Positions 8,853-18,256 of a stretch of DNA of 39,400 nt are shown in pieces; within the stretch, counting starts at the first letter, position 1, and each line of letters starts with the position of its first letter. A program made the position numbers and the translations under genes. Below the pieces are notes generated by a model. That model searched no databases, was not told the origin of the DNA, and was given only the letters and a program-made list of their open reading frames with translations. Source of the DNA: Antricoccus suffuscus (GTDB lineage Bacteria > Actinomycetota > Actinomycetes > Mycobacteriales > Antricoccaceae); assembly GCF_003003235.1 (NCBI RefSeq), contig NZ_PVUE01000028.1, positions 1 through 39,400 of the forward strand, in the 5' to 3' direction.

Positions 8853-9848
8853 CTAGCCGCCGTAGTCGACGTTGGGCTGGTCGGAGGGACAGACGTACCA
8901 CAGCGAACCGATATAGGACATCGGGATCGGGATCGCGCCGGATCCCTTGTCGTCGGTGACGTTGACGGTGGCCATCGTGTCGCCGGTCTGCTTGGAATCT
9001 TTGACGACGAGCGTCAACCCCTTGTAGCTGTCGAACGTACCGTTCGCAGCCGCGCTGTCGAACGTGTCCTTATCCGCCGAGCACACATAGAGCTTTGCGC
9101 CGTTGTAATTCTGCGTCGACAGATCGTCGACGAATGTCTGTGCGTCGTCCTCGGCCTGCGCGAGGTCGAGTTCCGCACTGCTACCGCTGCTGCCCGAGTC
9201 CGACGAGGATCCACTCCCGCTGGAGCCGCTTTCGTCGCTACCTGAGGTGGGACCATTCTCGCTGCTGGTCTGTTCCTGCGACTGGCTGCTCGATTCGCCG
9301 CCGCCGGCCGTTTTGCGATCGGGCGAACTGTTCTTGTTCAGCACGATGATGAGCACCGCAGCCGCGACCGCGACAACTGCGACGACGGCGGTGATGATCC
9401 ATGGGAGCGGGCTCTTCTTCTGCGGCGCGCCGCCGGGCCCACCGGGAGGGCCGCCGTACGCCGGCTGGCCATACTGACCGGGCTGGCCGTACTGGCCTTG
9501 CTGTCCGTATTGGCCGGGCTGGCCGTACTGACCCTGTTGCCCGTAGGGATCCTGGCCCGGCTGGCCATACTGACCCTGCTGAGCGTAAGGGTCCTGCTGT
9601 CCGTATTGGCCCTGCTGGCCTTGGCCATAGGGATCCGACTGCCCATACTGGCCCTGCTGGCCGTACGGATCGCTGGGCAGGCCCTGGTATCCGGATCCGC
9701 CTTCGGTGGGGGCCGGTGTCCAGCCGGGTACGTCGCCCTGCTGGGGACTGCCATCCGGGTTGAGCGGTGGGTTCTGACCGTATGGATTGGGGTCCTGACT
9801 ATGGGTGCCCGGGTGGTTAGGGTCAGAGCCGTACGGGGGTTGCGTCAC
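8853..9848 (-). CDS. Single-pass membrane protein with GQYGQ-repeat cytoplasmic tail and extracellular two-Cys domain
   Basis: 331 residues in four parts. Residues 1-60 are polar and Pro-rich; residues about 61-138 are near-perfect repeats of YGQQGQ / GQYGQPGQ / DPYGQ; a membrane helix follows at about 149-172 after PQKKSPLPW; then comes an acidic Ser/Gly linker and a C-terminal domain of about 110 residues with Cys in KLYVCSADKD and WYVCPSDQ. The topology (Lys-rich side before the helix) puts the repeats inside and the Cys domain outside. The GTG start at 9848 has AAGGA six bases upstream. It is the third of three tandem genes with the same architecture; the C-terminal domain resembles DUF4878/NTF2-like secreted folds, but this is a judgement from pattern only. 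Function unknown. Confidence 0.8.
   Translation of the reverse strand: MTQPPYGSDPNHPGTHSQDPNPYGQNPPLNPDGSPQQGDVPGWTPAPTEGGSGYQGLPSDPYGQQGQYGQSDPYGQGQQGQYGQQDPYAQQGQYGQPGQDPYGQQGQYGQPGQYGQQGQYGQPGQYGQPAYGGPPGGPGGAPQKKSPLPWIITAVVAVVAVAAAVLIIVLNKNSSPDRKTAGGGESSSQSQEQTSSENGPTSGSDESGSSGSGSSSDSGSSGSSAELDLAQAEDDAQTFVDDLSTQNYNGAKLYVCSADKDTFDSAAANGTFDSYKGLTLVVKDSKQTGDTMATVNVTDDKGSGAIPIPMSYIGSLWYVCPSDQPNVDYGG
9445..9665. repeat. In-frame tandem repeat array encoding GQYGQ units
   Basis: On the + strand, units such as GGCCGTACTGACC, CTGGCCGTATTGGCC and CTGCTGTCCGTA recur about a dozen times with variation, in steps of 9-24 bases. They encode (G/D)(Q/P)YGQ units. The repetitive DNA makes slippage or recombination likely, always in multiples of three. 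Confidence 0.7.
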
Positions 9849-9917
9849 TTTTGATCCTTAATAGTTTCAGTCAGATGAGGTTATCGGGACATATGGCAGT
9901 AAGTGGCCTGGTTGACG

Positions 9918-10460
9918 CTATTTCTGCTTGATATCACAAATTTTCCATTCGCCGCCTTCAACCTCCAGTTGATAGACGACGGTCAGCGTCTGGCCCTGAT
10001 ACGACGCCGTCACGTCGACCGTGCCGCTGGTGTCGGAATCAAGCGTCGGCTCACCGTGACTGAAGGTGACACCCTTCTTCGAACCGAAGTCTGAGGTATC
10101 GCTTTCCATCACCGACTTGTACGACGAACACAAGTATGTCAATCCAGTGTCTTTGTCGTCGTTCTCTACCGCGGCGAGGTATCCCTCGACGGGATCGATC
10201 GGCTGATTCGAGGCGGACTGGTTTCCGGTCGAACTGCTGGAGCTCGACGACTGGGTCTGGCTTGTCTGGCTTGTCTGGTTTGACTGGCTGCCGGGATCCG
10301 CGCCACCGGCTTTGGGATCGGGATTCGTTCCGGTCTTGCTCACGACAATGATGACAAGCGCCACGGCGAGCCCAGCGACGGCGATCAACGCCGCGAGGAT
10401 GATCGGCAACCGGTTAGTAGACGGCTGCCCGTTAGTAGGTTGCGGAAAGTTATTTGACAC
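9918..10460 (-). CDS. Single-pass membrane protein, short paralog of the GQY-rich proteins
   Basis: 180 residues: a short Asn/Gln/Pro-rich start (MSNNFPQPTNGQPSTN), a membrane helix at about 19-40, a Ser/Thr/Gln-rich linker (about 48-83), and an outer domain with VEGYLAAVENDDKDTGLTYLCSSYK and a closing WKICDIKQK. The two Cys match the positions of the pair in both neighbours, and the pattern of an early helix, middle beta strands and a final W-x-V/I-C strand is shared. It lacks the long YGQ repeats. The GTG start at 10460 has GGAAGG six bases upstream and overlaps the stop of the preceding gene by 11 bases, so the two are coupled. Function unknown. Confidence 0.8.
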   Translation of the reverse strand: MSNNFPQPTNGQPSTNRLPIILAALIAVAGLAVALVIIVVSKTGTNPDPKAGGADPGSQSNQTSQTSQTQSSSSSSSTGNQSASNQPIDPVEGYLAAVENDDKDTGLTYLCSSYKSVMESDTSDFGSKKGVTFSHGEPTLDSDTSGTVDVTASYQGQTLTVVYQLEVEGGEWKICDIKQK

Positions 10461-11058
10461 TGCACACCTTCCACGACCCGCTGTGCTTTTCCAAGTTCAC
10501 GGTCACCGTCGTGGTGCCTGGGGCGTTGTAGTCATTTCCAGATCCGGCTTCCATGTTGTACTTCAGCTCAACATCCACCGTCGCCTTGTCGCCATTGATA
10601 TTGGCATCTTGCGAAACCGTGTACTTCATCCCCGTGGTGCCTTTGGGATTGTCACCACTCTTCTTGATCTGGTCGTAGAGCTCGCCGCAGGCGTACTTCA
10701 TTGCCTCACTTGCATCCCCGGCTTTGGCCGCTTCCATAAACGACGTGGTTACCGCGACCGGGTCACTCGCGAACTGATCACCGCCACCGCCACCACCGCC
10801 CTTGCCGCCTTTGCCGCCAGTGAGAACCAGCGCGAGAGTGACTCCAATTACGGCTACCACAGCGATCGCGCCGGTGATGATCCATGGCATCGCGCTCTTC
10901 TTCTGCGGAGGAGGTCCCCCGAAGCCTCCCGACCCATACTGCGGCTGGCCATACTGAGGCTGGCTGTACTGGGGTTGGCCGTACTGAGGCTGCTGCGGTG
11001 GTGGACCGTACGGGTGCTGGGGATCGTATGGCGGTTGGCCGTAAGGGGGCTGCGTCAT
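10450..11058 (-). CDS. Single-pass membrane protein with YGQPQ-rich tail and extracellular two-Cys domain
   Basis: 202 residues. The N-terminus MTQPPYGQPPYDPQHPYG plus YGQPQYSQ-type repeats (to about residue 45) is followed by PQKKSAMPW, a membrane helix (about 57-78), a Gly-rich hinge of GGKGG and seven further Gly, and an outer domain beginning DPVAVTTSFMEAAKAGDASEAMKYAC. That last segment has the look of a DUF4878-type fold (helix carrying a crowded Ala/Cys strand), ending with WKVCSVK. The PQKK-S-x-(M/L)PWIIT junction is almost identical in the 8853-9848 gene, so the two are clear paralogs. It is the first gene of the three-gene minus-strand cluster. Function unknown. Confidence 0.8.
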   Translation of the reverse strand: MTQPPYGQPPYDPQHPYGPPPQQPQYGQPQYSQPQYGQPQYGSGGFGGPPPQKKSAMPWIITGAIAVVAVIGVTLALVLTGGKGGKGGGGGGGDQFASDPVAVTTSFMEAAKAGDASEAMKYACGELYDQIKKSGDNPKGTTGMKYTVSQDANINGDKATVDVELKYNMEAGSGNDYNAPGTTTVTVNLEKHSGSWKVCSVK

Positions 11059-11198: not shown

Positions 11199-11567
11199 TC
11201 ACCTCGAACGCGGTCCGAAGTCTCCGATGTCGGTGCGGTGCGCGTCATCCGAGAGATCCCCATCGCGCCGAGAGACCGCCCCGGGCACGGCAATCAACCG
11301 CGGTTCAAAGCCACTGGGCTCATTGCGCGCGGCATACATGAACGGCGCCGCGTGCACCTTGACGTCGTACGCCGACAATGCCCGTCGGTAGGAGCCGAAA
11401 CTGTCCCAGACGGTCGCAAGCACCCAGGCGCCCGGTTCGTCGGTGCTGCGCGCGAACCAGCCCCGTTCGAACCCTTTGCAGCCCGCAAACGCGCCCAAGG
11501 CGGCCTCGGCCTTGTCCATGAACTCTGGGCCGTCGGACGGCTGGTCGATTCTGACGATGGCAAGCAT
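11199..11567 (-). CDS. Small ABM-fold (antibiotic biosynthesis monooxygenase-like) protein
   Basis: 122 residues without membrane segments. The pattern MLAIVRIDQ-(helix)-GCKGFERGWFARSTDEPGAWVLATVWDSFGSYRRALSAYDVKVHAAPFM is that of a dimeric alpha/beta-barrel ABM domain: first strand, helix, GF-x-RG strand, W-V-L-x-T-x-W strand, and a final helix with a His. The last 30 residues are polar and probably disordered. Family members include cofactor-free monooxygenases and heme-degrading enzymes, but many are uncharacterised; the substrate cannot be told. The ATG at 11567 has AAGGA nine bases upstream. It is divergent from the zinc uptake operon, sharing a 92-base control region, which makes metal-linked expression possible but unproven. 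Confidence 0.7.
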   Translation of the reverse strand: MLAIVRIDQPSDGPEFMDKAEAALGAFAGCKGFERGWFARSTDEPGAWVLATVWDSFGSYRRALSAYDVKVHAAPFMYAARNEPSGFEPRLIAVPGAVSRRDGDLSDDAHRTDIGDFGPRSR

Positions 11568-11607
11568 GGGATGAATTCCTTACGGCGCGGCGTTGAGCAC
11601 TGAGATA

Positions 11608-11639
11608 TGCATACATGCAGCTTTGACAATAAATTCTCG
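11608..11639. promoter_or_regulatory. Candidate metalloregulator sites in the divergent znuA / ABM control region
   Basis: Two imperfect operator-like elements sit in the 92-base gap. TGCATACATGCA (11608-11619) is an inverted repeat TGCAT-AC-ATGCA. TGACAAT-AA-ATTCTCG (11624-11639) resembles a degenerate Zur box (known actinobacterial core TGAAAATGATTTTCA) but has a 2-base centre and two mismatches. A TTGACA at 11623-11628 could be the -35 of znuA. No firm -10 was found. Assignment to SmtB or Zur is inference. Confidence 0.35.
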
Positions 11640-11659
11640 CGTGCACGACTGTATCGACC

Positions 11660-12589
11660 ATGAACTTCTCTCGTAGGTCTTCCCGACATGCTGTCGCCGT
11701 CGTGGCGCTTTCCGCCGCGCTCGGTGTTGCCGCGTCCGCACTCACCGGCTGTTCCTCCGCAGGCGCCACGTCCGACGGAAAGCCCAACGTGGTCGTTGGT
11801 TTCTATCCCCAAGAGTTCCTCGCTACGTCGATCGGCGGCAACGACATCCACGTCACAAGCGTCGCGCAGCCCGGCGCGGAACCGCACGATATGGAGATCA
11901 CCGGGAAGCAGGTCGCGAAGGTCACCGACGCGGGCCTCGTGATTTACATCAAAGGCATCATGCCGGCGCTCGATAATGCGGTCGCAAACAATAACAGCGA
12001 GCACGGCCTCAACCTGGCAACCGTCACCACCCTGAAGGGCGGTTACAAGGAGATCGGCCAGGAAAACGGCAAGGCAGGCAAAGACCCACACATCTGGCTC
12101 GATCCGGTACTCATGAAAAAGATGGCGACGGCGGTTGGCGATCGGCTAGTGAAGATCGACAAAGCTCACGCGGCAACCTATAAGCAGAACACCGCGACGC
12201 TGATCAAGAAACTTGATGCCCTCGATTCGGCGTACAAGACCGGCCTGGCAAACTGCGAACGTACGTCGATCGTCACGACTCACAACGCGTTCGGGTATCT
12301 CGCCGAGCAGTATGGGCTTACCCAAGTCAGTATCGCCGGCCTGTCTCCGGACAACGAGCCGTCGCCGCAGCGGATGACTGAAGTCAAGACATTCGCGCAA
12401 GAGCACGGAGTCACTACGATCTTCTTTGAGGAGGCAGTCAACCCGAAGTACGCCGAGACAATCGCGTCGGAGGTCGGCGCACAGACCGCGGTGCTCTCGC
12501 CGATCGAGATCGCGCATAAAGGTGAGGACTACATCACGATCATGCAAGCCAACCTCGCAGCACTCAGGAAAGCACTTGGGTGTTCGTGA
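11660..12589 (+). CDS. znuA: Zinc ABC transporter substrate-binding lipoprotein (ZnuA type)
   Basis: Captures metal outside the membrane and passes it to the permease. The signal peptide ends in the lipobox LTGC (C31), so the mature protein is lipid-anchored. Cluster A-I metal ligands can be read: H76 in GAEPHDME, H144 in DPHIWLDP, H208 in TTHNAFGYLAEQYGL, and an acidic residue in the FFEEAVNPKY segment. A His at the third ligand position, where manganese binders such as PsaA have Glu, argues for zinc. The His-rich loop of Gram-negative ZnuA is absent. Two Cys (C199 and C308) could form a disulfide. It is the first gene of a four-gene operon; its stop overlaps the start of the ATPase gene. 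Confidence 0.9.
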   Translation: MNFSRRSSRHAVAVVALSAALGVAASALTGCSSAGATSDGKPNVVVGFYPQEFLATSIGGNDIHVTSVAQPGAEPHDMEITGKQVAKVTDAGLVIYIKGIMPALDNAVANNNSEHGLNLATVTTLKGGYKEIGQENGKAGKDPHIWLDPVLMKKMATAVGDRLVKIDKAHAATYKQNTATLIKKLDALDSAYKTGLANCERTSIVTTHNAFGYLAEQYGLTQVSIAGLSPDNEPSPQRMTEVKTFAQEHGVTTIFFEEAVNPKYAETIASEVGAQTAVLSPIEIAHKGEDYITIMQANLAALRKALGCS

Positions 12590-13437
12590 CCAACACTCGA
12601 CTGGATCCGCACGCGACGGGCATCGAGACCCCTGTGGTCTCGGTGAGCGACGTGCACGTGCGTATGGGTACGACGCAGGCGCTGCGCGGGGTCAGCTTCG
12701 ATGTCCACTCCGGTGAGGTCGTTGCGATACTCGGGCCCAACGGCTCCGGCAAGTCGACCATCATCAAGACGATCGTGGGGCTCATCGAAGCGCAGTCCGG
12801 GTCAATCGAGCTTTTCGGCACGCCGATCCGCCGGTTCAATCAGCGTTCGCGCATCGGCTACGTGCCGCAACGCATCACCGCGGCGTCCGGCGTACCGGCG
12901 ACCGTCCAGGAAATCGTCACCTCCGGTCGGCAACAAGGGCTGTTCAGCATCCGGCGGGCCGCAGACAAGAAGGCGGTCCTCGAGGCGATGGATGCCGTCG
13001 ATGTTGCCGACTTGCGCCACCGGAGCGTCGCGCAGCTGTCCGGGGGGCAACAGCAACGAGTGCTCATCGCCCGGGCCCTCGCCCGCCAGCCCGAGTTGCT
13101 CATCCTCGACGAACCGCTCGCAGGAGTCGACATCGAGCAGCAAGACTCGCTCGCGACGACGCTCCAACACCTGCGCGGGCAGGGACGCACCATCGTCATC
13201 GTCTTACACGAACTCGGTCCGATCGCGCCGCTGATCACTCATGTGGTCGGATTACGCGGCGGAATGGTGCAGTACAACGGGGCGCCCGCCGACGCCCCCG
13301 TCGAGCACGCCGTACCCGATCAGGGCCACGATCATGTGCATCCGCACGACGAGGACGACCAGCCATATCAGCGTGCTGCGCTGCTCATCAACGATCCGAT
13401 GAGTCCGGCCTCAGATGGCGAGAAGGTGGACCGATGA
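12580..13437 (+). CDS. znuC: Zinc ABC transporter ATP-binding protein (ZnuC type) with His-rich tail
   Basis: ATPase that powers zinc import. Walker A is GPNGSGKST, the signature is LSGGQQQR, Walker B is LLILDEPLAGVD, and the switch His is in IVIVLHELG. After the nucleotide-binding domain the protein carries an extension of about 45 residues with GHDHVHPHDEDD, a likely metal-binding tail. The GTG at 12580 has GGAAAG seven bases upstream and overlaps znuA by 10 bases; a second GTG at 12586 (GTGA overlap with the znuA stop) differs by only two codons. Its stop overlaps the permease start (ATGA). The overlap chain shows tight translational coupling through the operon. Confidence 0.92.
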   Translation: MFVTNTRLDPHATGIETPVVSVSDVHVRMGTTQALRGVSFDVHSGEVVAILGPNGSGKSTIIKTIVGLIEAQSGSIELFGTPIRRFNQRSRIGYVPQRITAASGVPATVQEIVTSGRQQGLFSIRRAADKKAVLEAMDAVDVADLRHRSVAQLSGGQQQRVLIARALARQPELLILDEPLAGVDIEQQDSLATTLQHLRGQGRTIVIVLHELGPIAPLITHVVGLRGGMVQYNGAPADAPVEHAVPDQGHDHVHPHDEDDQPYQRAALLINDPMSPASDGEKVDR

Positions 13438-14294
13438 GCTACCTGACCTATCCCTTTATGCAGCGGGCGCTCATCGCCGCAGTCCTCGTCGGACTATGCG
13501 CGCCGGCGGTCGGCACTTACCTCGTGCAAAAGAAACTCTCGTTGATGGGCGATGGAATCGGGCACGTCGCGTTTGCAGGCGTCGGACTGGGGATCCTCCT
13601 TGGTACGTCGCCGGTGTTGGTCGCGGTCGTCGTGTCCGCCGCCGGCGCGATCGCGATGGAGGTCATGCGGTCGCGCGCCAAGACCAGCGGCGACATGGCG
13701 CTGGCAATCTTGTTCTACGGCGGCATCGCGACTGGTGCTCTGCTCATCTCGATTAACGGTGACAGCTCGATCAACGTCCAGTCCTACTTGTTCGGCTCGA
13801 TCCTCACCGTCAACAACAGTGACATCATCGTCACCGCGGTGTTGGCGGCGTTCGTCCTGCTGGTCACCATCGGCTTGCGCCGCGCACTGTTCGCCACCAG
13901 CCACGACGAAGAGTTCGCCCGGGTGGGCGGCGTACCGGTCATGCTGCTCAACATCCTGCTGGCAATGACGGCCGCGGTCACCGTGTCGGTGGCGATGCGG
14001 GTCGTCGGGCTGCTTCTTGTCAGCGCGCTGCTCGTCTTGCCGGTTGCATCCGCGCAACAGCTCACCGGGTCGTTCGCGAGCACCTTCGCAGCAGCGATCG
14101 GGATCGGCGTCGTGGTCACGCTGGCAGGCGTCCTACTCGCCTATCCGGTTAACGTTGGTCCCGGCTCCCTGATTGTGGTCGTCGCGATCGGGGTATTTTT
14201 CCTGTGTGCGCTTGCCAGCCGGGCGCGCGAGCGGCTTTTCCGCCGACGCCACGCCATCGACGCGACAACCGAGCCGGTGGCCCAAGCTACGTGA
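13434..14294 (+). CDS. znuB: Zinc ABC transporter permease (ZnuB type)
   Basis: Integral membrane channel of the zinc importer, 286 residues with about eight or nine hydrophobic helices, as in the ABC-3 family. Conserved features include LVQKKLSLMGDGIGHVAFAGVGLG near the N-terminus, the EE(F/L)AR-x-G-V coupling loop (HDEEFARVGGVP) that contacts the ATPase, and the MRVVGLLLVSALLVLPVASAQ segment. A basic C-terminal tail (SRARERLFRRRH) is cytoplasmic. The ATG overlaps the znuC stop. The next gene, the SmtB-type sensor, starts 14 bases after the permease stop. Confidence 0.92.
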   Translation: MSYLTYPFMQRALIAAVLVGLCAPAVGTYLVQKKLSLMGDGIGHVAFAGVGLGILLGTSPVLVAVVVSAAGAIAMEVMRSRAKTSGDMALAILFYGGIATGALLISINGDSSINVQSYLFGSILTVNNSDIIVTAVLAAFVLLVTIGLRRALFATSHDEEFARVGGVPVMLLNILLAMTAAVTVSVAMRVVGLLLVSALLVLPVASAQQLTGSFASTFAAAIGIGVVVTLAGVLLAYPVNVGPGSLIVVVAIGVFFLCALASRARERLFRRRHAIDATTEPVAQAT

Positions 14295-14308
14295 GAGGTA
14301 ACCGAGCA

Positions 14309-14674
14309 GTGACCGAGGACGACCTCCACCAGCCCGCGCACGATCACCTGCTTGAACCGCTGAAGAGCACTCGCGGCACGACCGCGACGTTTGCCGCCGC
14401 CAGCGAGTTGCTGCGCGCGCTCTCGGCGCCGATCCGCGCTCAGCTGGTCTCGCTACTCGACGAACACGGTGCGCTGTGCGTCCACGAGCTCGTCGAGGCC
14501 CTCGACGTAGCGCAACCGCTCGTGTCCCAGCATCTACGCATCCTGCGCGGCGCGGGCGTCGTGATCGGTGAACGACGGGGCCGCGAAGTCGAGTATCGCC
14601 TCGCCGACGACCACATTGCGCACATCGTCAACGACGCGGTCACCCACAGCCAGGAACCCGACCCGGCCAGCTAG
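14309..14674 (+). CDS. ArsR/SmtB-family zinc-sensing repressor
   Basis: 121-residue winged-helix regulator. The recognition part is [28 protein letters not shown], with a wing [12 protein letters not shown]. The C-terminal helix carries D100-x-H102-x10-H113-x2-E116, which exactly matches the alpha-5 zinc site of cyanobacterial SmtB (D-x-H-x10-H-x2-E). C57 and E60 near the alpha-3 position and His residues at the N-terminus (H7, H11, H13) could form a second site. Zinc binding releases such proteins from DNA. GTG 14309 has GAGAGG ten bases upstream; GTG 14291 would overlap the permease stop but has no ribosome site. It is the last gene of the zinc uptake operon, which is unusual, since SmtB types normally govern export or, in mycobacteria, furB/zur. 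Its stop shares CTAG with uppS. Confidence 0.88.
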
Positions 14675-15456
14675 GCTTTGCCGAAGCGCCGTTCCCGGCC
14701 GGCGAACTGAAGACACGCATCCCACAGATCTAGCCGGTCGAAGTCCGGCCAGCGGGTATCGACGAACATTAATTCGGCGTACGCCGACTGCCACAGCAGG
14801 AAGTTGCTGATCCGCTGCTCTCCTGACGAGCGGATAAACAGGTCCACATCGGGCATGTCCGGCTCGTCGAGGTATCGCGAGATCGTCTTTTCGGTGATTT
14901 TCTCCGGATCGAGCCTGCCCGCCTTGACCTCACGCGCGATCGCGACGGCGGCGTCCGCGATCTCTGCGCGGCCGCCGTAGTTGACGCACATGGTCAACGT
15001 GCAGACATCGTTGCGCTTGGTCAGTTCTTCGGCGATCTCGAGCTCCTTGATGACCGACCGCCACAACCGTGGGCGACGACCTGCCCACCGGACCCGTACG
15101 CCGAGGTCGTTCATCTCATCTCGCCTGCGGCGGATGACGTCGCGGTTGAATCCCATGAGGTATCGGACCTCTTCGGGGGAACGTCGCCAGTTCTCGGTCG
15201 AGAATGCATATGCGGACACCCATTTCACGCCGACTTCGATCGCGCCTTCGACGACGTCGAACAATGAGCTCTCGCCCGCCGCATGTCCCTCTGTGCGCGG
15301 CAGGCCGCGGTCCTTGGCCCATCGGCCGTTACCGTCCATCACGATCGCGACGTGCTCGGGCAGCTGCTCTCGGGGGATCTGCGGCGCGACCGCACCGGAC
15401 GAGTGCGGGGTGGGTGAACGGCGCGGCGGCGTCCGGCTCACGTAGTCACCGGCCAT
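14671..15456 (-). CDS. uppS: Isoprenyl transferase (decaprenyl/undecaprenyl diphosphate synthase, cis type)
   Basis: Cis-prenyltransferase that makes the long-chain prenyl diphosphate lipid carrier for peptidoglycan and arabinogalactan building. The catalytic [19 protein letters not shown] (Asp41) is intact, as are [57 protein letters not shown] and WPDFDRLDL, in normal order. A 30-residue Pro/Ser-rich N-terminal extension precedes the fold. It overlaps recO by 19 bases and its stop shares the CTAG with that of the convergent SmtB gene. By synteny (mycobacterial Rv2361c) this would be the longer-chain decaprenyl type, but chain length cannot be seen. Confidence 0.94.
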
Positions 15457-17809: not shown

Positions 17810-18256
17810 ATGGACCCCGCAGCACCAACTCCGCGCGAACGACTGGCCGCGGCCGGTCTTCGTACGACGGTCCAGCGGGTCGCCGTACTCCAAGTGATCG
17901 AGCGGCGCGAACATCTCGATGCGGACCAGATCCGCGATCGGGTCACCGGTCAGATTGGCAAGGTATCGACGCAGGCGGTGTACGACGTACTCAAGGCCCT
18001 GTCTGAGGCTGGCCTGCTACGCAAGATCCAGCCGGCGGGAAGTTCGGCCCTATACGAGTTGCGCGTGGCCGACAACCACCATCACCTGATCTGCCGCTCC
18101 TGCAGAAAGATCCTTGATGTCGACTGCGCCCACGGCGCGGCCCCATGCATCGAACCGGACGACGACCACGGGTTCGTGCTCGACGAGGCCGAAGTCATCT
18201 ACTGGGGGCTGTGCGCGGACTGCGCACACGTCTCGTCTGCGCTTCCCCAAAACTGA
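17810..18256 (+). CDS. furA: Fur-family redox/peroxide regulator (FurA/CatR type)
   Basis: 148 residues: an N-terminal winged helix (QIGKVSTQAVYDVLKALSEAGLL as the recognition region) and a C-terminal dimerisation/metal domain. NHHHLICRSC has the His cluster and C95-x2-C98, and CADC at 135-138 gives a second CxxC. The signature APCIEPDDDHGFVLDEAEVIYWGLC matches mycobacterial FurA and Streptomyces CatR rather than Zur or iron-sensing Fur. FurA represses its own gene and the downstream peroxide-defence gene. Here the next gene is a catalase 49 bases on, in the same direction, just like catR-catA of Streptomyces; in mycobacteria the partner is katG instead. Peroxide sensing through metal/Cys oxidation is expected but not shown. 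Confidence 0.9.
   Translation: MDPAAPTPRERLAAAGLRTTVQRVAVLQVIERREHLDADQIRDRVTGQIGKVSTQAVYDVLKALSEAGLLRKIQPAGSSALYELRVADNHHHLICRSCRKILDVDCAHGAAPCIEPDDDHGFVLDEAEVIYWGLCADCAHVSSALPQN

Follow-up and report, generated by a model that had tools for sequence, protein, structure and literature searches.

Among the described systems closest to the present locus are those of mycobacteria. In M. smegmatis, SmtB binds to the promoter of zitA and, when the cells are depleted of zinc, to that of smtB-zur; the activity of the latter is lowered by zinc depletion when Zur is missing (PMC7174638). A motif search at zitA and smtB-zur gave no conclusive SmtB site there, while a consensus for mycobacterial Zur was published in the same work (PMC7174638); in M. 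tuberculosis, a 26-bp motif bound by SmtB overlaps the smtB-zur promoter (PMC13284343). SmtB has been placed among the regulators of export, and Zur has been described as an occasional activator (PMC6103462). In Streptomyces, zitB is activated from a Zur box located 8 nt upstream of the -35 (PMC5472717). The ArsR-type protein Rv2034 is reported as a positive regulator of phoP (PMC3338718). Among the open-licence papers retrieved, none presents, in its title or the beginning of its abstract, an SmtB-type sensor as an activator of zinc uptake.

The locus described here was found in a stretch of 39,400 nucleotides of Antricoccus suffuscus (contig NZ_PVUE01000028.1, positions 1 to 39,400), referred to as the window. 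Its comparison with related genomes was based on gene order, on the typing of Fur-family proteins and on the sequence of the promoters.

The znu operon and its terminal smtB gene

Four genes, znuA, znuC, znuB and smtB, are located at 11660-14674, all on the plus strand, with neighbouring frames overlapping or almost touching. The features of the region used in the following are:

11660..12589, plus strand: znuA, zinc-binding lipoprotein; PF01297 (ZnuA), 256 bits
12580..13437, plus strand: znuC, ATPase with a His-rich tail; PF00005 (ABC_tran), 121 bits; synteny
13434..14294, plus strand: znuB, permease; PF00950 (ABC-3), 217 bits
14309..14674, plus strand: smtB, ArsR/SmtB sensor; NF033788 and PF01022; likely start GTG 14309, stop 14674
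14606..14656, plus strand: alpha-5 motif D100-x-H102-x10-H113-x2-E116, codons read in smtB
14671..15456, minus strand: uppS, PF01255; a landmark found beyond zur in many relatives and adjoining smtB in the window
17810..18256, plus strand: Fur-family regulator, not of the Zur type by tree, beside a catalase gene (PF00199)

The Pfam matches of all four operon proteins exceed the cut-off (HTH_5 of smtB: 53 bits), and uppS, recO and era of the window are also borne out by Pfam. For smtB the longest frame starts from 14204, the start at 14309 being more likely for the protein. The first-pass annotation had proposed a zinc uptake operon with an SmtB-type sensor as its last gene, and the frames, along with the Pfam matches obtained for all four genes and the NCBIfam match of the sensor, confirm that it is real. 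An ArsR-type winged helix is present in the smtB product (PF01022, 53 bits; NF033788, 'metalloregulator ArsR/SmtB family', 85.8 bits for a cut-off of 55; 1r1t, E 5e-11). The closest solved structures are the ArsR-family protein 8qkf (107 bits), NmtR and SmtB 1r1t (46 bits), and the named relatives are actinobacterial, e.g. from Saccharomonospora and Gordonia. The exact pattern D-x-H-x10-H-x2-E reported by the annotation is present and intact, and we take its residues to be the zinc ligands of the SmtB alpha-5 site. Of 38 sensor sequences examined, 31 retain the motif and the other 7 have H for the last E; these H-for-E sensors belong to four f12 and three f16 loci (L092, L093, L149, L155, L140, L141, L143; f numbers denote families). 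By its sequence, the smtB product is an ArsR/SmtB-type zinc sensor, for which a lowering of DNA affinity by zinc is predicted.

Two groups of minus-strand frames precede the operon. Three neighbouring, paralogue-like frames at 8853-11058 contain Pro/Gly/Gln/Tyr-rich or Ser-rich stretches and a membrane segment, and a small protein gene at 11199-11567 is divergent from znu; the latter keeps its place beside znu in many relatives, and its product has no Pfam match at E 0.001.

Strong SmtB orthologues, defined by a score of 85 bits or more (the next score being 61), were detected in 34 of 61 genomes, at 35 loci; the locus of the window was drawn from its reading frames, and the 34 others were mapped by tblastn. 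At 23 of the 35 loci zur is next to smtB, and at 16 smtB is the last gene of a znu operon, in the order znuACB-smtB-zur (nine), znuACB-smtB (three) or znuCB-smtB (four). The znuACB-smtB form without zur is that of the window, of G018 and of G030, the last two having a Zur type elsewhere, and the znuCB-smtB form is that of G001-G004, which together with A. suffuscus (G000) make up its family, f1. Each of these four genomes encodes one PF01297 protein, and its znuA is located away from znuCB-smtB. Many relatives have uppS, recO and era beyond zur, at a distance of 0.4 to several kb. Four f1 genomes have uppS directly after smtB, and in G004 the contig stops before uppS is reached; zur is missing between the two genes on the tblastn map. 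The annotation had also noted that no zur adjoins smtB in the window, as is the case: smtB meets uppS directly. In three f16 genomes, too, smtB is next to uppS; there is no znu at the locus, and zur is located elsewhere.

Fur-family proteins and Zur boxes

The genome of A. suffuscus is a draft of 4.68 Mb in 43 contigs, 97.8 percent complete. A Fur family model finds two proteins in it, both of types other than Zur, and no Zur-type protein was found in this draft by the model and a tree of 46 rows. In the tree the Fur protein of the window and the second one fall into two different groups, both apart from Zur, although long branches make single placements unsure. The group of the window protein is presumably the FurA type, and that of the second protein is assumed to be the Nur type, by Streptomyces synteny with a YgfZ-like gene. 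The sole Fur protein found in the window had been described as of the FurA/catalase type; its separation from Zur in the tree and the adjoining catalase gene agree with its not being a Zur.

In the 61 genomes, the best Fur score is 72-80 bits for the five members of f1 versus 82-132 for the other 56. The best Fur protein of 30 of these 56 was typed, by using a Zur query taken from G051, and was a Zur match in 30 of 30 (122-242 bits); the same proteins reached 62.4 bits or less against FurA or Nur queries. By Fur model, typing and tree, the Zur type is absent in four of the five f1 genomes (G000, G001, G002, G004). G000 and G004 contain Nur and FurA, G001 FurA only, and G002 Nur plus a FurA-type fragment; three of the assemblies without a Zur type are those of G001, one contig and 99 percent complete, and of G002 and G004, both 100 percent complete. 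The fifth genome, G003, encodes one divergent, long-branch Zur-like protein, from a gene away from znu, and for this reason a description of all five genomes as devoid of Zur was dropped. The usual repressor of zinc uptake seems to have been lost, and SmtB retained, in A. suffuscus and in the majority of the close relatives that have been sequenced. Since no zur was found in the draft, the earlier suggestion that the sensor acts on a distant zur loses support.

Two single genes may be described in this context. The lone Zur-like gene of G003 (L158:3980-4381) is located between metA-like and large NRPS-like frames, named by eye, and was perhaps acquired with a metal-chelator cluster. In G002, a short Fur-family frame (L299:1453-1704) contains the C-terminal half only, is nearest to the FurA type, and is broken or misassembled.

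The published Zur consensus, shortened to GANAANNNTTNNC, was found in 22 of 25 znu promoters of family f15, where it overlaps the -35 box, versus none of 9 in f1 (Fisher 4e-6, rows not independent). Fisher and Mann-Whitney values, calculated as if related promoters were independent, serve only as a description. No Zur box was found in the znu promoter of A. suffuscus or in any of the 9 f1 znu promoters, and two Zur-type repeat patterns also matched 0 of 9. A Zur-type protein is present in all five f15 genomes searched for Fur, one of which is represented among the 25 promoters.

Candidate SmtB sites at znu and at exporters

The region upstream of znuA contains the following elements:

11605..11624, plus strand: putative SmtB site, ATATGCATACATGCAGCTTT; its dyad is at about -45.5, counted from the start codon, and it aligns in all 9 f1 znu promoters
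11623..11628, plus strand: candidate -35 box TTGACA; TTGACA is found upstream of all 16 znu operons with smtB that were examined
11647..11652, plus strand: putative weak -10 box GACTGT, after an 18 nt spacer and 7 nt before the ATG; spacing alike in most aligned relatives

With these boxes, the znu mRNA would be leaderless. An ATGC-type site is found at a fixed distance just upstream of the -35 in 9 of 9 f1 znu promoters, with ATTC for ATGC in one of them; these promoters were located by a pattern holding part of the motif, those of f15 by the znu pattern itself. In the five f1 znu operons, the ATGC-type palindrome is directly 5' of TTTGACAATA, and is imperfect in G002. The relocated znuA genes of G001-G004 (L285, L287, L288, L289), outside the znu operon in four of the five f1 genomes, have their own promoter with ATGCGACTTTGACAAT, each with its own copy of the promoter module.

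Exact copies of ATGCNNNTTTGACAAT number eight in the five f1 genomes, all at znu, relocated znuA genes included. When one mismatch is allowed the matches are 13, versus 1 in the reversed control, and consist of the eight exact ones, one at znuC of G002, and four further ones in G000. Of 397 genomes of the order, 70 contain a strict znu pattern, TGCANNNATGCNNNTTTGACAA, versus none for the reversed control; four of these belong to f1, one to f4 and 65 to f15. In the 30 of them that were opened, it is directly before znuA or znuC in every case. At least 13 f15 genomes, including all 10 from genus g39, are without a match to the strict pattern. The sequence ATGC-N4-TTGACA precedes 12 of 16 znu operons with smtB versus 0 of 4 znuACB-zur operons without it, one of the four, that of G025, being from a genome with smtB elsewhere. 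The znu site is absent in three of four f12 operons with smtB; of the four f12 loci with an H-for-E sensor, three lack it. The -10 boxes at znu are poor (GACTGT, CAACGT). A site abutting the -35 and a weak -10 would suit a class II activator, which is also expected to contact the polymerase.

In family f7, which we take to be Mycobacterium-like, the smtB-zur promoter at the six loci examined reads TTGACATGCR-N6-YGCAT, with the box after the -35. An inward palindrome, TGCAT-NN-ATGCA, had also been considered as the site and was dropped, the smtB-zur and CDF promoters of f7 showing the outward form ATGCR-N6-YGCAT. The znu site is a one-sided variant of this form, with the dyad one base away.

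A matrix was built from eleven f7 sites only, six from smtB-zur and five from CDF promoters, with training scores of 22.4-30.0. Applied to f1 CDF promoters, it gives 24.3 for A. suffuscus, 21.2 and 18.5 for G002 and 17.7 for G003, levels met by 3 to 17 per million positions of a background that includes the tested sites. A strong SmtB-like box thus precedes the CDF gene of A. suffuscus (Cation_efflux), located elsewhere in the genome, at about 35-61 nt from the start; overlap of such a box with the -35 and -10 region is clear only in relatives. This box adds support to the annotation's alternative of an exporter as target of the sensor. Outside the training set, 7 of 25 CDF loci score 17.7 or more (those of G000, G002 and G003, a further one in f7, one in f14 and two in f16), as do 3 of 15 smtB promoters, two from f4 and one from f9; no box was found with this matrix in the smtB promoters of f14 (0 of 5) and f16 (0 of 3). 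Two f16 CDF genes, L264 of G040 and L263 of G048, have strong SmtB-like boxes, and the lone uppS-side smtB of these genomes has none. Fourteen boxed CDF promoters of f7, f14 and f15 were picked from 30 because the box had already been seen, and 12 of them fit TTGCNN-17/18-TAkNNT; in these the spacer contains the box, and the -10 is good.

At the znu register of f1 the same matrix scores -1.6 to 8.9, versus a best value of -15.6 at 35 other TTGACA sites of these genomes; by this measure the znu site is weak and one-sided, and scores below the exporters. Exact TGCAYNNATGCR, searched within 100 nt upstream, is present at 36-46 nt in only 4 of 14 f1 CDF-like matches, and was not found in that interval at the best CDFs of G001 and G004; an ArsR-like gene is directly upstream of the best CDF of G001. 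Short motifs alone show no excess over reversed controls in most genomes, the exception being G002 (9 versus 2). The genome of A. suffuscus has TGCAYNNATGCR at 24 distinct places, and the 11 inspected include znu, the CDF gene, the inside of a glmS-like frame (C29) and a position beside a parA-like frame (C23), both named by eye; no zinc context is evident at the others inspected. The link by motif between the znu site and the SmtB-like boxes is fairly well supported.

Proposed control of uptake and export

The gene order, the lack of a detectable zur, the loss of the Zur box, the shared motif and its place relative to the putative promoters can be read from the sequences; from them we infer that SmtB would bind the znu and CDF boxes and, on the basis of position and weak -10 boxes only, that binding at znu would activate. 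At the exporter and smtB-zur promoters that could be placed, a box after the -35 is, by its location, predicted to mean repression. In the resulting model, which we consider evenly balanced between right and wrong, SmtB is the sensor of both uptake and export in a lineage that has lost zur. Zinc-free SmtB would stay on the DNA, covering the promoter of the CDF exporter and blocking its transcription, and, just upstream of the -35 of znuACB-smtB, would help RNA polymerase as a class II-like activator. Zinc at the alpha-5 site would take SmtB off the DNA, so that export starts and uptake loses its activator. In the ancestors, Zur would have been a second, zinc-bound repressor of znu; the lineage would have lost zur together with its box, and kept the SmtB arm.

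At znu the site comes just before a -35 of consensus sequence, followed by a poor -10, and with a message beginning at the ATG its dyad would be near -45.5, as in the geometry of an activator. A repressor at znu would raise uptake with zinc, so that the long conservation of the site would be hard to explain; in Zur-bearing relatives, moreover, it would shut znu at low zinc, as Zur lets go, which favours activation. Since the SmtB and Zur sites abut in f15, an anti-Zur role of SmtB may have come first, in Zur-bearing relatives. The wider proposal is that of a single-sensor zinc economy, in which zinc-free SmtB directly activates import and represses export in the absence of Zur, the znu site predates the loss of Zur, and co-activation occurs in Zur-bearing relatives, for instance the 65 f15 genomes with the site; it is tentative, and we rate it a little to the doubtful side. 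The annotation had regarded direct control of import by an SmtB-type sensor as being of the wrong sense; the premise holds for a repressor only, and activation by apo-SmtB would give the right sense. Its other suggestion, that the regulatory logic differs, is favoured by the related, weaker site upstream of the -35 in the znu promoter itself. It had set against this a standard zur, a Zur box in front of znuA and an SmtB site only at an exporter, and none of the three was found.

The low score of the znu site by the f7 matrix and the stronger boxes at exporters would also fit an SmtB that represses exporters only and whose gene has simply been inherited in its place behind znuB since the loss of zur, znu being constitutive or otherwise set and the element being a UP-like part of the promoter or the site of an unknown factor. 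This is possible but unlikely: the element shares the half-site ATGC with the SmtB-like boxes, lies in the same register in all nine znu promoters and is absent from the four examined znu operons without smtB.

SmtB could instead serve as an autoregulatory limiter that represses znuACB-smtB when zinc is low, in the way seen at smtB-zur of M. smegmatis, where zinc depletion lowers promoter activity without Zur (PMC7174638). The inclusion of smtB in the operon would suit this arrangement, as would the site abutting the -35, into which a 26-bp site like that described in M. tuberculosis (PMC13284343) would reach. Without Zur, however, uptake would then rise with zinc, and the znu site is upstream of the -35, whereas it is after the -35 in six f7 smtB-zur and 12 CDF promoters; we regard such a limiter as improbable.

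A replacement of Zur at znu by another Fur-family protein, of the Nur type (G000, G002, G004) or of the FurA type (G000, G001, G004, with a fragment in G002), is very improbable, as the five f1 genomes all have smtB but share no Fur-family type, and the two Zur-type repeat patterns match none of the nine promoters. A zur hidden in the unassembled part of the draft, for which its 43 contigs, its 97.8 percent completeness and the Zur-like gene of G003 away from znu may be quoted, is hardly to be expected, given that the more complete G001, G002 and G004 are also without zur and that the znu promoter of A. suffuscus has no Zur box.

If apo-SmtB does activate znu, a conserved SmtB-type site at an activator position in importer promoters would represent a second mode for a family of sensors described as derepressors of export, and the locus would illustrate a way for zur to disappear while uptake stays under control. 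A consensus would also be offered for the SmtB operator, which was reported as not found in M. smegmatis (PMC7174638). The parts of this system are known; its arrangement is new, and its sense of control probably so.

The mycobacterial smtB-zur locus (PMC7174638) is similar in having a related SmtB with uppS, recO and era nearby, and the same class of box is present in the smtB-zur and CDF promoters of mycobacteria-like genomes; unlike it, the locus of A. suffuscus has no zur, its smtB closes the znu operon, and the site is upstream of the znu -35. Zur of Streptomyces coelicolor at zitB (PMC5472717) is also a single sensor that represses or activates according to the position of the box, with the activating box just upstream of the -35, but as a mirror image: zinc-bound Zur activates export, whereas zinc-free SmtB would here activate import. 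Rv2034 (PMC3338718) is comparable as an ArsR-type protein acting as a positive regulator at some promoters, and differs in that zinc does not release it from DNA and in its operator. Zur of Synechococcus WH8102 (PMC9337993) similarly serves as a single sensor for scarcity and excess; that organism relies on Zur, whereas the family of A. suffuscus would rely on SmtB.
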